Shown here: in pieces, positions 19,990 to 30,387 of the stretch
Numbering within the stretch: the first letter of the stretch is position 1
Layout of the letters: every line of letters begins with the position of its first letter
Assembly (NCBI RefSeq): GCF_003054705.1
Contig: NZ_QAYX01000024.1
Span: 248,001 to 312,000, forward strand
Reading direction: 5' to 3'
Length of the DNA: 64,000 nt
DNA from: Opitutus sp. ER46
GTDB taxonomy: Bacteria > Verrucomicrobiota > Verrucomicrobiia > Opitutales > Opitutaceae
Notes under the pieces: model-generated
Databases searched by the model: none
What the model saw: the letters and a program-made list of their open reading frames with translations, nothing else
What the model was told of the DNA's origin: nothing
Program-made: the position numbers and the translations under genes

Positions 19990-20011
19990 GCACGGCAGAT
20001 TCGTTTGCCCT

Positions 20012-20070
20012 GGCTCCCGGCAAGGGAGCCCGCCGCCCGTCCCGGTCTCCGGGGCGGGCGGTTGCTTTTT
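20012..20070 (+). terminator. Intrinsic terminator of pckG (two stacked hairpins)
   Basis: GGCTCCC (20012-20018) pairs with GGGAGCC (20024-20030). Directly after it CCGCCCG (20033-20039) pairs with CGGGCGG (20055-20061), with CCC/GGG pairing inside, followed by TTGCTTTTT. The T-rich tail makes the second hairpin a convincing Rho-independent terminator. Confidence 0.85.
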
Positions 20071-20100
20071 GGGGCCCTTTACATCGCGGGGTTTCTGGCG

Positions 20101-20982
20101 ATGCTCGCCGCGATGTCCGTCGATCTCGCGCTGACTCGCGACCACATCCTGGATCACGCCCACTCGCTGCCTGCCGCCCCGCGGGTGATGGCGTCGCTTT
20201 GCGACCTGCTGCAGGACATCAACACCGACCTCGATCAGATCGCCTACGTTATCCGGGCCGATCCGGCGCTGGGCGCGCGGGTGATCCGCATCAGCAACAG
20301 CGTGGTGTACGGCGGCGACTGGCAGGTGGCCTCGATCGACGAGGCGGTGAACCGCGTGGGCTTCGAGGAGGTGCTGCGACTCGTCGGCACCGCGAGCGTC
20401 GCCGGCTTTGTCGACCGCTCGCTGATGACGTACCACCTCGAGGCCGAGCACGTCCGGGCCTCGCTGCTCCTGCACGCGCTGGCGAGCGAGTCGCTGGCCC
20501 GCCGGGCCGGCATCGACCCGCGGACGGCGTACACCGCAGGCCTGCTGCGCGCGCTCGGCATGATGGTGATCGACCGCGCGGCGCGCGGCCGACTCGCGCC
20601 GGCGCGGACGTATGACAATCGTGAACACGCCACCTACCTCGACTGGGAGGTGGCCCGCTTCGGCGTGGGCGCGCCGGACGTGACCCGCATGATCCTCGAC
20701 GAATGGCGCTTCCCGGACCCGATCGTGAACGCGATTGCGCTGCACCTGCTCCACGACGAGACGGCGGAGGCGGATCCCTTTGCCGCCCTGCTCAATGTCG
20801 CCGGCGCGATCGTGAATGCCGCGAGTCTCGCGCTGCCCGGCGAGACCCGGCATTGGGAGCTGACGCCGCGAAAGCTGCAGGCCGCGCGGCTCACGGAGTC
20901 GCAGTGGCGCGCCGCTTTGGATGAGGCGCTGACGCGTTTCGGCCGGCAGCGCGCGGGGCTGGTGCTCAGCCTGCCGCGCTGA
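20101..20982 (+). CDS. HDOD-domain protein 1
   Basis: A protein of 293 aa, soluble, consisting almost entirely of one HDOD domain: PAAPRVM near the start, then SNSVVYGG, DEAVNRVGFEEVLRLVG, AYTAGLLRALGMMVIDRAA. HDOD domains are degenerate relatives of HD phosphohydrolases and act in signalling, usually with no catalytic activity; metal-binding HD residues are not evident here. Starts at 20101 (MLAAMSV) or 20113 (MSVDLALT) are both plausible, and no strong ribosome-binding site separates them. The more upstream frame to 20005 crosses the pckG terminator and is rejected. Two further HDOD genes follow within 6 kb, so this is a small family cluster. Confidence 0.85.
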   Translation: MLAAMSVDLALTRDHILDHAHSLPAAPRVMASLCDLLQDINTDLDQIAYVIRADPALGARVIRISNSVVYGGDWQVASIDEAVNRVGFEEVLRLVGTASVAGFVDRSLMTYHLEAEHVRASLLLHALASESLARRAGIDPRTAYTAGLLRALGMMVIDRAARGRLAPARTYDNREHATYLDWEVARFGVGAPDVTRMILDEWRFPDPIVNAIALHLLHDETAEADPFAALLNVAGAIVNAASLALPGETRHWELTPRKLQAARLTESQWRAALDEALTRFGRQRAGLVLSLPR

Positions 20983-21967: not shown

Positions 21968-22798
21968 ATGCCGATGACCCGCGAACAGTACCTCGCCTTG
22001 GGCAATAAACTTGCACCGGCGGCGGCTACCTTGGCGCGACTCAGAAACCTGCTGCTTGATCCGGACACGGCGATGGACGAGATCCTGCGGCTGGTCCGGC
22101 TCGATCCGGCGCTGACGTACCACGTGGTGCGCATGAGCAACAGCGTGCTGTTTGGCCTGCGCGAGCGCACCGACTCCCTCGACATCGCGGTCGCGCGCGT
22201 CGGGTTGAGTGAGGTCTTCCGGTTGGTCGGCTTGGCGGCGGTGCAACAGGTCTGCCAAAACGACCTGTTGCGGTATCGACTGAAGGCGGTGCGCATCTGG
22301 GAGAACGCCGTGGCGACAGCGGCAGCGGCGGAAGTTCTGGCCGGCCGGGCCGGGCGTGATCCCGGGCTGGCGTACACCGCGGGCCTGATGCGTACGATCG
22401 GCCGCGTGGTGTTGGACGCCGTGCCGGTCGAGGAAACCTATCCTGGCGAGGCGGAGTGGCCGTCCGTGGCGGACTGGGAAATAAAGGTCTTTGGCACCAC
22501 CGCGACGGAGGTGACCACGCAGTTGCTGGAGTACTGGCGGTTCCCGGGCGACGTGATCGAGTCGATCGACGCGCACTTCGATCCGCTGGCGAGTTCGAGT
22601 TCGAACGTCGGGGCGTGCGTGCTGAACCTGGCGTGCGGCGTGTCGGCCCGCTTCGGGCTGGATCTGCCGGGCGAGAGTGGAAACTGGATTTGCACGCCGG
22701 CGAAGCTGACGCTGGCCGGCGTGAGCGAAGCGGATCTCGAGGACTGTGCGACCCGCGCGCGCGCGCACTACGTGCTATTGTGCGCGAGCGTGGTGTGA
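21968..22798 (+). CDS. HDOD-domain protein 2
   Basis: A protein of 276 aa with a single HDOD domain. The core motifs are LDPALTYHVVRMSNSVLFG, AVARVGLSEVFRLVGLAAVQ and AYTAGLMRTIGRVVLDAV, aligned with those of the other two HDOD proteins in the window. The sequence ends with the helix LEDCATRARAHYVLLCASVV, matching the end of HDOD protein 1, so the domain fills the entire protein. The role is expected to be in signal transduction, with no output domain visible. It precedes the convergent putA gene by 21 nt. A T-rich run and a GAAGGAAG stretch lie just upstream of the ATG. Confidence 0.86.
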   Translation: MPMTREQYLALGNKLAPAAATLARLRNLLLDPDTAMDEILRLVRLDPALTYHVVRMSNSVLFGLRERTDSLDIAVARVGLSEVFRLVGLAAVQQVCQNDLLRYRLKAVRIWENAVATAAAAEVLAGRAGRDPGLAYTAGLMRTIGRVVLDAVPVEETYPGEAEWPSVADWEIKVFGTTATEVTTQLLEYWRFPGDVIESIDAHFDPLASSSSNVGACVLNLACGVSARFGLDLPGESGNWICTPAKLTLAGVSEADLEDCATRARAHYVLLCASVV

Positions 22799-26140: not shown

Positions 26141-27958
26141 ATGATGGGGTCGCCGATTTTGCGAATGGCCACCTTTCGCGAGAGAATCCTCGAAGTTGCG
26201 AGGACCCTACCCCCTGCGCCCCGTGTTTTTGCGGAGCTGGACCGGCTATTGCGCGACGCCAACAGCGGCCTTGATGAGATCGCGGCGTTGATCAAACGGG
26301 ATGCGACCCTGGTGGGGCACGTGATTCGCGTGAGCAACAGCACTGTGTACGGCGGCGAGCAGCCGACGGGATCGGTCGAGGAAGCGGTGGTGCGGGTCGG
26401 CTTCCAAGAAGTGTTCCGCATCGTGGGCCAGGTGGCGATGTCGCGCCTGGCGGAGCGCCCACTGCGAGCGTACGGCGTGGATGCCGACCGGCTGCGCGAA
26501 CTGATGCTGCACACGGCCTTTCTCTGCGAGCACCTGGCGACGGAGTGCGGCATCGATCCGCGGAGCGCGTACACCGCCGGGCTCATGCGCCCGCTGGGCT
26601 TGCTGATCCTTGATCGGCTGGCGGACCGGCACGGTCACCTCGAGGTCTACAACCCGGCCGAGCACGAGGATTACGAGGAGTGGGAAGGGCGGGTGTTTGG
26701 TCTCTCCAGCGCGGAGGTGGCGGCGCTGGTCCTCGACTCGTGGAGTTTTCCCCAGGATATCGTCCAGGCCATTCGCGCGCAGTATCTCGTCCGCTCGGAG
26801 GACCTGACCCTGCGTTTTGCCTGCCTGCTGAACCTGGCGAGCGGTGTGGCGGCCGAGCAGGGGCAGGGGCTTCCTGGCGAGCTGTGCCACTGGACCGGGC
26901 AGGCGTGGAAGCTGGAGACGCTTGGCCTGACGGAGACGCGCTTCAACGTGGCGGTGGCGCGTGCGCAGGATGCCTATGCGGCGTTTCGCGGCCGTCTGCT
27001 ACCGGAGGATGGAAGCCAGAAGCCGGAAGCCGGAGGCCAGAGGCCGGAAGCGGGAGGCCAGAAGACAGATGTCGGAGATCAGATGTCAGAGGTCAGAAGC
27101 CGGAAACCGGAGGCCGGAAGCCGGAGGCCGGACGACGGAAACGAGAGGCCGGAGGGCGGAAGTCAGAGACCGGAAACCGAAGGGCGGGCGCTGGTGGCGG
27201 AACTGCCGGCCGCAGGCTTGGCGAAGGTGGAAGCTTCGGCGATTCAGGTGGATCCGCAGGCCCTGCCGGAAAACCGCAACTTTGCCACGGGGCCGCGTGT
27301 TCTCGGAACGAACGATGGACCGCCTGTGCAATCATCAACCGCCGCCCCCGCCGAGCTCTCCCAGCCGGAAACGACCGAGCCTGTCGTGGCGGCGGTGAGC
27401 CCGCCCGCCGACGACTTCACTACGTTCATGCGCAACTACCAGGACATGGTTTACTCGACCGCCGCACGCGTCACCGGCAATGACGCGCAGGCCGAGGACA
27501 TTGCCCAGGAGGTGTTCCTGAAGGCGTACGAGAACTTCGACCAGTTGCGGCAGAGCCCGACGGCGGGAGGCTGGCTCAAGACCGTCGCGACCAATCTCTC
27601 GATCAACCACCTCTCGCGGTATCGGAACCGGTGGCGCTTCTTCTCGGAGTTCCGCCGCTCCAGCGATGCAGGCGACGAGGACGAGGCGCCGATGGAGTTT
27701 GCCGCGCCGGACAATTTCTTCGCGAACCTTGATGCTGCCGACCGGCGTGAGCTCGTTGATCGCGCGCTGGCGCAGTTGCCGGAACACCAGCGGGTGCCGC
27801 TGGTGCTCTACCATTTCGAGGACATGCCGTACGATGAGATCGCGCGCAAACTGCGCGTCAGCCTCGCCAAGGTGAAAACCGACATCCTCCGCGCGCGCGC
27901 CGCCCTCGCGAAGATCCTCCAGCGCAGCGGCACGGCGCACGAGCAACCCAGCTACTGA
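26141..27958 (+). CDS. HDOD domain joined in frame to an ECF sigma factor by a heptapeptide-repeat linker
   Basis: One frame of 605 codons with no internal stop. Residues about 1-285 are an HDOD domain (SNSTVYGGE, EEAVVRVGFQEVFRIVG, AYTAGLMRPLG). Residues about 293-348 are eight heptapeptides such as GQRPEAG, SRRPDDG and NERPEGG. After an Ala/Pro-rich stretch, residues about 424-600 are an ECF sigma factor, with region 2 (FMRNYQDMVYSTAARVTG, AEDIAQEVFLKAYENF) and region 4 (LPEHQRVPLVLYHFEDMPYDEIA). The HDOD part ends where HDOD proteins 1 and 2 end, and the linker lies where an intergenic array would. An internal GTG at 27326 could start a separate sigma factor of about 210 aa. So this is either a true fusion or two genes joined by the array. 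MATF at 26165 is an alternative first start. Confidence 0.85.
   Translation: MMGSPILRMATFRERILEVARTLPPAPRVFAELDRLLRDANSGLDEIAALIKRDATLVGHVIRVSNSTVYGGEQPTGSVEEAVVRVGFQEVFRIVGQVAMSRLAERPLRAYGVDADRLRELMLHTAFLCEHLATECGIDPRSAYTAGLMRPLGLLILDRLADRHGHLEVYNPAEHEDYEEWEGRVFGLSSAEVAALVLDSWSFPQDIVQAIRAQYLVRSEDLTLRFACLLNLASGVAAEQGQGLPGELCHWTGQAWKLETLGLTETRFNVAVARAQDAYAAFRGRLLPEDGSQKPEAGGQRPEAGGQKTDVGDQMSEVRSRKPEAGSRRPDDGNERPEGGSQRPETEGRALVAELPAAGLAKVEASAIQVDPQALPENRNFATGPRVLGTNDGPPVQSSTAAPAELSQPETTEPVVAAVSPPADDFTTFMRNYQDMVYSTAARVTGNDAQAEDIAQEVFLKAYENFDQLRQSPTAGGWLKTVATNLSINHLSRYRNRWRFFSEFRRSSDAGDEDEAPMEFAAPDNFFANLDAADRRELVDRALAQLPEHQRVPLVLYHFEDMPYDEIARKLRVSLAKVKTDILRARAALAKILQRSGTAHEQPSY
27017..27184 (+). 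repeat. Array of 24 heptamers inside the HDOD-ECF frame
   Basis: The 168 nt divide exactly into 24 units of 7 nt with the consensus C(A/G)GA(A/G)GC; typical units are CGGAAGC, CGGAGGC, CAGAGGC and CAGATGT. Because 7 is not a multiple of 3, each 21 nt give one heptapeptide, so eight heptapeptides result. Not one of the 24 units generates a stop in this frame. The unit, read from GA, is GAAGCCG, a variant of the GAAAGCT words in gaps elsewhere. Confidence 0.9.
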
Positions 27959-27979: not shown

Positions 27980-28444
27980 ATGAATCCCCAGGACCAACAG
28001 AAACTCGAACAATGGGTGAACCGCGCCGTCCGCGATCTGCCGTCGCGCCGGGCGCCGCGTTCGCTTGAGGAACGGGTGCTGGCCGAGTTGTCGCGTCGCG
28101 CGGCGCTGCCGTGGTGGCGCAAGAGCTTCGCGAGCTGGCCGCTGGGCGCGAAGCTCGTGTTCATTGCCGTCAGTGCCGGCGTCGCCGGGCTGTGGCTGTT
28201 CGCCACGCATTGGGCCACGCTCGCCACCACGGCGGTGCAAACCAAGGCCGCCTCGTTGCCGGCGCTCCAGGCCGCGCAGACGGCGGGTCGGTTGTTCAGT
28301 ACGGTCGGCGAATTCGGCCACACGGTCGTCAGCAGCATTCCTCCCCTTTGGCTGTATGGCGGGGCCGCCGTGATCGTCGGCCTGTATCTGGCGCTCTTCG
28401 GTTTGGGCGCCGCGGCCTACCGCACCCTCTACGCTTCATCTTAA
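27980..28444 (+). CDS. Probable membrane anti-sigma factor
   Basis: A protein of 154 aa, starting 21 nt after the sigma-factor stop. The first 50 residues are charged and helical (MNPQDQQKLEQWVNRAVRDLPSRR, EERVLAELSRRAALPWWRKS), which suits binding of a sigma factor. Two membrane segments follow (about 55-75 and 117-140). There is no zinc-finger (HxxxCxxC) motif of the common anti-sigma family. The assignment rests on position and layout, not on a recognised domain. The gene is followed after 2 nt by the RDD membrane protein, so three genes probably form one operon. Confidence 0.6.
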   Translation: MNPQDQQKLEQWVNRAVRDLPSRRAPRSLEERVLAELSRRAALPWWRKSFASWPLGAKLVFIAVSAGVAGLWLFATHWATLATTAVQTKAASLPALQAAQTAGRLFSTVGEFGHTVVSSIPPLWLYGGAAVIVGLYLALFGLGAAAYRTLYASS

Positions 28445-28446
28445 TC

Positions 28447-30387
28447 ATGAAAACGTCTTTGCGCCTGCTGCTTCTCTCCGCGTTCACCTGCGCCGGCCTG
28501 GTGACGTTTGCGGCTCCGGCGGAACCGGCGGTGCCACCCTCGCCGGACCAGCCGGCCGCGGCCGCTCCCGCCCCGTCGGCCACCGCGTCGACCGACAGCG
28601 CGGCGGTCGTACCGGACGCCAGTGCGCCCCCCGCCGCTCCAGTCGCACCTGCCGCTGCCGCCGCCCCCGCGGCGCCGGTCGAGACGGAGGCAAAACCGGA
28701 TAGCGGCCAAAGCGCCGGTGGTGAGTTGCGCCGGCTGGACACCGCCGCCACCGAGGCGACGGACGCCGCGGCGACTCCGGCCAGTTCTGCGAAGTCGCAG
28801 GAAAAGGTGACGGTGCGCTCGTCGCGCCCGCCTCGCACTGGCTCGTCCCGGGTGATGATTTTCGAGAACGCGACGCTCTCCAAGGGCGAGAACGCCGACG
28901 CGGTCGTTGCGCTGATGGGCAATGCGACTGCCGACGGTGACGTCGCGGACGCCGTCGTGGCCGTGATGGGCAATGCGCGGGCCACGGGCACGGTGGGCGA
29001 TTCGGTCGTCGCGGTGATGGGCAACGTGTACGTCGACGGCAAGGTGCGCGACGTCGTGGCTGTGCTTGGCAACGTGGAACTTGGGCCAAATGCCGAGGTG
29101 CGCGGCGATGTCGTTAGCGTGGCAGGGCGGGTGAAGCGCGACCCCAAGGCGGTGGTGCGCGGCTCGGTGCCCGCGATCGGGCTGCCCTTTGGCGTCGGGA
29201 GCGCGGGCGGCTTCGGCGACTATCTCAATGCCTGCCTGTTGAAGGGGCGGTTCCTGGCGTTTGCTCCCGGGCTGGGCTGGGCGTGGGGCGTCGCCGCCAT
29301 CTTCCTGGCGTTCTATATCGTGCTCGCGCTGCTCTTCCGCGGCGGCATGGAAAAATCGGTGCAGACGCTCGAGACGCGCCCCGGTGGGTCGATCCTGGCG
29401 GCACTCCTGACGCTGCTCCTGACGCCGGTGCTTATCCTCCTGCTGATCATCACGGTGGTTGGCATCGCCGTGGTGCCGTTCGTCGGCATCGCCCTGCTGC
29501 TCGCCACCCTGTTCGGCAAGGCGGTGATGATTGGCTGGCTGGGCCGGCGGATCACGCGGCTCTTCGCGCAGGAAGGACCGATGGCACATCCGGCCTTCGC
29601 GGTGCTCGTGGGCGGCGTGATCGTGATGCTGCTCTATACCGTGCCGGTGCTTGCCTTCATCACGCACAAATTACTCGGGGTGATGGGGCTGGGGGTCGTG
29701 GTCTACACCCTGATGCTGGCCTCCAAGCGCGAGAAGCAGTCACGGCCCGTGACGCCGGCTCCCGCATTTGCGGGTGGGGTGACGCCGCCGGCGGCGCCTG
29801 CGAGCAGCGCGGGGTTGGTTGGCGCCGCCATGGCGACGCCGGCTGACCCTGCGGACATTGGCGCGCAGCCTGCGGCGGCGGTCGCGCCTGAGTTGGGAGC
29901 GACTCCGTTTGCCGAGTCGGCCGTACCGCCGGTCATGCCGGTGCCGACGGTGGCCGGGGTGCCGCCGCGCGTGCTGCTGGCGAGCCTGCCGCGGGCCGGG
30001 TTCTGGATTCGCACGGGCGCGATGGCGATCGATGCGATGCTCGTCTGGGTGATTCTCATGCTCTTCCTCGGCATCTTCCCCGATCGCTGGGACCTGCACG
30101 TCTTCCCGCTCTTCCTGCCGGCGCTCGCGGCCTATGGCGCGGCGTTGTGGAAGCTGCGCGGCACGACGATCGGTGGCATCATCTGCGGGCTGCGGGTGGT
30201 GCGCGTGGACAACCGGCCGATCGACTGGGCAACGGCTGTCGTGCGGGCGCTCGGCTGCTTCGTGTCGCTCCTGATCGTCGGGCTCGGCTTCATCTGGGTC
30301 GCGATCGATGACGAGCGGCAGTCCTGGCACGACAAGATCGCCGGGACCACCGTGGTGCTCTCCCGCGAAAACATGGCATTGGTGTAG
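28447..30387 (+). CDS. Secreted or membrane protein with polymer-like beta repeats and a C-terminal RDD domain
   Basis: A protein of 646 aa. It has a signal peptide (MKTSLRLLLLSAFTCAGLVTFAAP), an Ala/Pro-rich segment (about 22-110), and a region of short repeats DAVVALMGNA, DAVVAVMGNA, DSVVAVMGNV, DVVAVLGNV (about 150-215) resembling the beta-helical turns of bactofilins and other polymer-forming proteins. Then come four or more membrane segments (about 270-430), a proline/alanine linker, and an RDD-type membrane domain at the end (AGFWIRTGAMAIDAMLV and RGTTIGGIICGLRVVRVD). It is third in the sigma/anti-sigma operon and could be its output or signal-sensing protein in the envelope. The specific function is unknown. 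Confidence 0.75.
   Translation: MKTSLRLLLLSAFTCAGLVTFAAPAEPAVPPSPDQPAAAAPAPSATASTDSAAVVPDASAPPAAPVAPAAAAAPAAPVETEAKPDSGQSAGGELRRLDTAATEATDAAATPASSAKSQEKVTVRSSRPPRTGSSRVMIFENATLSKGENADAVVALMGNATADGDVADAVVAVMGNARATGTVGDSVVAVMGNVYVDGKVRDVVAVLGNVELGPNAEVRGDVVSVAGRVKRDPKAVVRGSVPAIGLPFGVGSAGGFGDYLNACLLKGRFLAFAPGLGWAWGVAAIFLAFYIVLALLFRGGMEKSVQTLETRPGGSILAALLTLLLTPVLILLLIITVVGIAVVPFVGIALLLATLFGKAVMIGWLGRRITRLFAQEGPMAHPAFAVLVGGVIVMLLYTVPVLAFITHKLLGVMGLGVVVYTLMLASKREKQSRPVTPAPAFAGGVTPPAAPASSAGLVGAAMATPADPADIGAQPAAAVAPELGATPFAESAVPPVMPVPTVAGVPPRVLLASLPRAGFWIRTGAMAIDAMLVWVILMLFLGIFPDRWDLHVFPLFLPALAAYGAALWKLRGTTIGGIICGLRVVRVDNRPIDWATAVVRALGCFVSLLIVGLGFIWVAIDDERQSWHDKIAGTTVVLSRENMALV

Follow-up and report, generated by a model that had tools for sequence, protein, structure and literature searches.

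A conserved HDOD–ECF sigma factor fusion with a putative internal promoter in Opitutaceae

One open reading frame in the genome of Opitutus sp. ER46 leads from an HDOD domain through an array of heptanucleotides into an ECF sigma factor. Has the growth of repeats joined two genes here, does the array switch a fusion protein on and off, or are two proteins made from one frame? The window, i.e. the whole stretch of 64 000 nt that we analysed, comes from a genome (G000) of 5.7 Mb in 25 contigs, and the frame in question occupies the following positions:

26141–27958, plus strand: HDOD–ECF sigma fusion gene, 605 aa, with the ATG at 26165 as the possible true start according to the alignment
26207–26785, plus strand: HDOD domain (PF08668), by Pfam match, confident fold in the model and Foldseek matches
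27017–27184, plus strand: 24 degenerate heptamers (56 codons), a predicted disordered linker, by TRF, inspection of the units and the model
27185–27274, plus strand: linker from the array to the putative internal promoter, with codon usage that is coding-like in the fusion frame only
27428–27907, plus strand: ECF sigma regions 2 and 4, by Pfam

The frame contains no internal stop. Pfam identifies an HDOD protein, with PF08668 at residues 23–215 (E 1.3e-38; 132.9 bits against a gathering score of 22.9), followed by Sigma70_r2 at residues 430–495 (E 1.3e-14) and Sigma70_r4_2 at residues 537–589 (E 9.9e-17). Regions 2 and 4 without a listed region 3 make the sigma half an ECF factor, and the NCBIfam model sigma70-ECF (TIGR02937) matches with 87.4 bits at a cut-off of 42.9. 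The earlier description of the frame as an HDOD domain, 24 heptamers and a complete ECF sigma factor is thus borne out by frame reading, Pfam and repeat detection. Two further HDOD proteins were confirmed in the window by Pfam (20005–20982 and 21968–22798), and, judged by eye only, the three HDOD regions have roughly corresponding ends, as had been remarked before.

To place the fusion among relatives, which as far as named are mostly Opitutaceae or other Opitutae/Verrucomicrobia, a profile of three fused HDODs was run against 252 genomes of the family, of which 37 match at E 1e-70 or better. At this cut and with nine candidates scored per genome, a setting that more diverged fusions escape, HDOD and sigma stand in one open frame at seven loci in seven genera (G000, G056 (L116), G078 (L119), G091 (L113 = L088), G094 (L115 = L048), G154 (L117) and G173 (L118)), the last of them in a single-contig genome. 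No sigma match is present at the other 23 of the 30 loci returned by the HDOD profile search. Outside the family no genome matched at E 1e-75 in a sample of the order (372 genomes) or of the phylum (387 genomes), again at a cut that more diverged fusions escape. Judged by its reading frames in seven genera, the fusion is an ECF factor with a conserved N-terminal domain in one polypeptide.

All seven fused HDODs group in a single clade (support 100/99 in 51 rows; 97/96 in 53 rows, with the nearest unfused paralogues from G154 and G156 added and four long branches dropped). In a sigma tree of 82 rows, calculated without L095, L101, L108 and L111, from which the sigma was not extractable, the seven fused sigmas are scattered among 75 unfused ones; the bootstrap of this tree had not settled, and the fused state requires seven changes on it, at least four of which are forced by well supported branches. 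Some close relatives differ in the HDOD half: L048 has it and L049 lacks it, and L088 has it while both L089 and L094 lack it. As the fused HDODs are one clade and their sigmas lie scattered among unfused ones, the fusion is old, its HDOD half having probably been lost repeatedly. One fusion followed by such losses is the simplest history, with repeated loss as an assumption because of the seven changes needed in the sigma tree; the HDOD piece may instead have been transferred, or replaced by transfer. The 12 intervals upstream of unfused sigmas that were searched for HDOD remnants contain none (best E 1.1). Long open frames upstream of the sigma in L100, L089 and others have no HDOD similarity and were not counted as fusions.

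The earlier note had proposed that repeat growth joined the two genes, and had named a fusion conserved at orthologous loci as the finding that would speak against it. The comparison of these loci did return the conserved fusion, but not a shared array: the array detector found no array in the six other fused loci. With the same fusion present without the array in six other genera, and with the fused HDODs forming one clade, we rejected the joining of two genes by repeats; on this comparison of sequences, the fusion is older than the array.

What, then, is the array? TRF reports it at 27011–27179 with period 21 and score 114, and the 168 nt of 27017–27184 can be read as 24 heptamers around the consensus CGGAGGC, which is matched exactly by three of the 24 units; the longest exact period-7 self-match is 9 nt. 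The linker, as counted, measures 384 nt in the window versus 102–171 nt in the six other fusions. The array looks like a later, lineage-specific lengthening of this linker, which did not disturb the frame, 24 × 7 being divisible by 3. Its unit belongs to a family that is abundant in this genome: an 18-letter probe (GAAGCCGGAGGCCGGAAG, up to two mismatches) has 364 matches in G000 (control: 5), and at most 18 in each of the 16 other genomes of a hand-chosen set of 17, the six other fusion carriers among them. Around arrays of G000 we took 40 stretches, in which 49 arrays were detected. In at least six of these stretches (L181, L184, L194, L204, L206, L218) arrays occur as inverted pairs, a plus-strand array being followed by a minus-strand array about 50–900 nt on.

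One may ask whether only a free HDOD protein and a free sigma matter, the joined frame having arisen by chance in GC-rich DNA with few stops. In the window, all three forward frames are indeed free of stops across array and counted linker, and the sigma is unfused in most relatives; however, within the HDOD clade the frame is joined in seven cases out of seven. Chances derived from shuffling, multiplied by 1/3 for the frame, come to 3e-8, a figure that exaggerates, given the common descent of the seven and their identification by the open frame itself, although their linkers differ in length and sequence. The openness of the array by itself carries little information, since 24 of the 49 other G000 arrays detected equally lack a stop in any of the three frames on their own strand. 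By codon score, a rough measure with a coding mean of 0.24 and a wrong-frame mean of -0.48, none of the three frames of the array looks coding (-0.36, -0.45 and -0.73). Its flanks score 0.10 on each side, and the array is not singled out by this score; for another of the arrays, L196, with an open frame running through it, the flanks score 0.27 and 0.11 with a slightly different training set. The 90 nt past the array, in contrast, score 0.39 in the fusion frame versus -0.68 and -0.61 in the other two, and coding-like codons in the fusion frame only favour translation past the array. An accidental frame is, in our judgement, quite improbable.

The array had further been suggested to switch the fusion on and off, its unit of 7 not being a multiple of 3. 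In fact, a shift into either of the other frames would run into a stop, at 27396 or at 27481, ahead of sigma region 2 or just where it begins, and a contingency locus of this kind, in which units are gained or lost, would produce a truncated HDOD protein and leave a free sigma intact, as its start would lie downstream of the array. The near-perfect tandem units of a contingency locus are not what we found, with three consensus units among 24 and a longest exact run of 9 nt (in one genome per species). An array so degenerate is not credible as a fast switch, which leaves the suggestion unsupported rather than disproved, and a contingency locus appears very improbable to us. In a separate observation, L191 (1570–1673; G000:C18, about 196770–196871) contains a perfect heptamer array of the same family (104 nt, identity 1.0), a much better candidate for variation in unit number than the array in the fusion gene.

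The third possibility, two proteins from one frame with the sigma starting at the GTG at 27326, gains support from a conserved promoter-like motif and a conserved GTG downstream of the array; the positions concerned are as follows:

27274–27283, plus strand: -35-like element of an internal ECF-type promoter-like motif (CCGCAACTTT), by motif conservation
27297–27303, plus strand: -10-like element of the same motif (GTGTTCT), by motif conservation
27308–27310, plus strand: ACG at the usual start position, by codon comparison
27326–27958, plus strand: free-sigma reading frame from a conserved GTG, 210 aa, by codon comparison

Upstream of the sigma, the motif GC[AG]AC, 15 or 16 nt, GKGT[TA] is found in 80 of 85 loci, compared to 35 of 4250 in the shuffled-sequence control; the 85 are without L105 and without copies that do not differ around the site, and the pattern was derived from the very loci in which it was then counted. 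Its spacing is 15 in 27 loci and 16 in 53, though 13–21 was allowed; it was not matched in L026, L094 (N letters), L106, L107 and L108. In all seven fusions the motif lies inside the frame with a spacing of 16 nt (27274–27303 in the window), although the rest of the linker hardly aligns (three of the seven aligned). We infer that the motif is probably an autoregulated ECF promoter read by its own sigma, of the kind with an AAC-type -35 element that is typical of these factors. It was not found within about 260–330 nt upstream of the HDOD in any of the seven fusions, so the fusion itself would be transcribed by something other than a sigma-type promoter. A wider regulon was considered for the genome of the window and rejected: the motif is as common there as the control (6 versus 5 matches), which leaves targets beyond the operon unsupported.

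The usual sigma start (ATG or GTG before NDD), 11 nt after the start of the -10-like element, is present in 55 of 73 unfused loci versus two of seven fusions (Fisher p 0.019, for rows that are not independent). Six codons further on, a GTG is found in all seven fusions and in 60 of the 73 unfused loci; in the window this is the GTG at 27326, in the fusion frame. In three Proteobacteria-labelled loci (L103, L110, L112) it is the first possible start, as an in-frame TGA occupies the usual start place six codons earlier, and in the genus-mates L018, L037, L040, L053, L055, L062 and L067 the usual ATG or GTG is absent and the later GTG kept. A free 210-aa sigma is therefore probably made from the GTG, as far as codon conservation can tell. 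The rarity of the usual start in the fusions may mean that internal initiation matters less there, and its absence from five of the seven would also fit a gene that makes the fusion protein only, the internal promoter being the relic of an unfused ancestor or the source of a minor product. With both the GTG and the motif at its 16-nt spacing kept in every fusion, in linkers that otherwise hardly align, we consider such a gene unlikely.

Downstream of the fusion two more genes follow:

27980–28444, plus strand: conserved 154-aa protein, probably membrane-bound, candidate anti-sigma, by neighbour comparison and model
28447–30387, plus strand: RDD-domain protein, next gene of the probable operon, without overlap with the 154-aa gene, by Pfam and neighbour comparison

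The RDD protein used in the searches began six codons upstream, at 28429. In 100 of 107 sigma rows the sigma is accompanied by both the 154-aa protein and the RDD protein; of the remaining seven rows, six are short stretches, and the 154-aa neighbour was found beside the sigma in 105 of the 107. Its model, made from 31 of 73 neighbour stretches plus the window, shows long helices; there was neither a Pfam match above the cut-off nor an NCBIfam match, and the one fold match, at E 4.8, is of no use. A cognate anti-sigma gene next to the sigma is usual, though not universal, for ECF factors; by its place the 154-aa protein would probably be such an anti-sigma, a role that the family and fold searches do not support, and it is a candidate for a new anti-sigma family. 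In gene order, the window and G056 share HDOD, HDOD, a gene on the opposite strand that we take to be PutA-like, HDOD–sigma, 154-aa protein and RDD protein, and G173 matches from the second HDOD onward, which supports one and the same locus in the three genomes. In 22 of the 35 loci with a PutA-like match this gene starts within 400 nt of the conserved sigma part, too close for an HDOD gene to fit in between. Six of the 12 intervals upstream of unfused sigmas (L038, L045, L064, L068, L075, L096) have what is, judging from the translation, presumably a racemase-like gene between the PutA-like gene and the sigma, and two of the 12 a presumed ammonium-transporter-like gene. In L088, about 1055–1409 nt upstream of the conserved sigma part, there is a probable PutA-like remnant, in which N-terminal pieces abut the very C-terminus and the middle is missing.

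We also modelled the fusion from a 29-row alignment (16 of 74 unfused sigma stretches, 10 of 11 HDOD stretches and three fusions). HDOD and sigma are predicted with confidence, with SadB (9qzk) and the HDOD protein 3hc1 as the best Foldseek matches of the former and ECF factors as matches of the latter, and pLDDT is below 50 at residues 282–413 of the 597-aa model, i.e. the linker of about 130 residues is predicted to be disordered. A protease could cut such a linker and thereby release the sigma, though by eye the seven linkers have no common motif except for the stretch encoded by the promoter, and cleavage would be superfluous if the internal promoter works; we regard this route as improbable. 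A stem of at least four pairs just inside the sigma frame is possible in 53 of 57 leaders of relatives (57 of 60 stretches; L029, L030 and L109 left out), compared to a mean of 34 (highest 43, 300 rounds) after swapping of the 3' parts and a mean of 20 (highest 28) after shuffling of synonymous codons. RNAalifold predicted no pair and no fixed-column structure for these leaders, the register of the stem shifting by eye, and the single Rfam match lies far below the gathering score. The leader of the window carries an insertion and is therefore outside this set; it can form a 6-bp stem somewhere in 27361–27425. The hairpin, in the relatives as in the window, is listed here as a lead and not as a result:

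about 27383–27415, placed by eye, plus strand: short candidate hairpin, resembling the recurrent hairpin of relatives

Taken together, we favour, with reasonable though far from full confidence, an old fusion of an HDOD domain with an Opitutaceae ECF sigma that kept its own promoter and start inside the frame, one gene thus giving two products. A promoter upstream of the HDOD, lacking the sigma-type motif, would make some HDOD–sigma, in which a signal or partner would act through the HDOD domain to control the attached sigma; active holoenzyme would then fire the internal promoter, so that the free sigma of 210 aa is made together with the downstream proteins, among which there is probably an anti-sigma. 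The heptamer array would be the repeat of this lineage, expanded inside an already disordered linker. More tentatively, and with a confidence that stays somewhat below even, the circuit might prime itself: signal-gated HDOD–sigma from a sigma-independent promoter would fire a promoter in its own coding sequence and so produce ungated free sigma and the operon. Since promoter and start lie inside the frame, the circuit would survive loss of the HDOD half, and lineages that lost it would keep a working, ungated circuit.

The gene would probably count as a conserved HDOD–ECF fusion with an internal, probably autoregulated promoter among ECFs with N-terminal extensions. PMC8103513 and PMC8999054 describe such regulatory extensions for the former groups ECF87–89 of Planctomycetes, which are given there as without experimental study, and for some ECF36. 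The likeness is a domain ahead of a complete ECF sigma; here, however, the domain is an HDOD, a promoter-like motif lies inside the frame and a candidate anti-sigma gene adjoins, whereas PMC8999054 describes N-terminally extended ECFs as having no anti-sigma gene nearby. ECF41 and other ECFs with C-terminal SnoaL-like extensions likewise unite regulatory domain and sigma in one polypeptide (PMC8999054), but at the opposite end of the protein and with a different domain. SadB of P. fluorescens, the best fold match of our model, binds c-di-GMP, activates transcription of algU and acts upstream of the ECF sigma AlgU, according to PMC6543031; it is not fused to a sigma and carries a YbaK-like domain, and the predicted HDOD of the window is likened to it by fold only. 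The analogy hints, and does no more than hint, at an HDOD that could relay a nucleotide signal to the sigma joined to it.

As for the array, tandem repeats of Borgs also lie in reading frames and encode disordered segments (PMC9879509), with unit lengths in ORFs divisible by three, whereas here one repeat of the protein takes three units of 7 nt. Heptamer arrays of Xanthomonas and Nostoc are likewise dispersed over the genome and are over-represented in non-coding DNA (PMC4692102), but have another unit, and the array of the fusion gene lies inside a gene. Neither an HDOD–ECF fusion nor these heptamers were found in the literature searched, the scope of which excluded most subscription papers. 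According to a 2021 review, control of ECF factors by N-terminal extensions was known in silico only, with no mechanistic information (PMC8103513). Fused and unfused versions of one sigma exist, some of them in close relatives (L048/L049; L088/L089, L094), and this makes the role of the extension directly testable; it also suggests how, in a simple way, a circuit could stay intact while it acquires or sheds a regulatory domain.

Finally, five Proteobacteria-labelled records (L101, L103, L105, L110, L112) contain the same sigma, 154-aa protein and RDD genes, with the promoter-like motif in all four of them that could be tested, which suggests transfer or mis-binned contigs.
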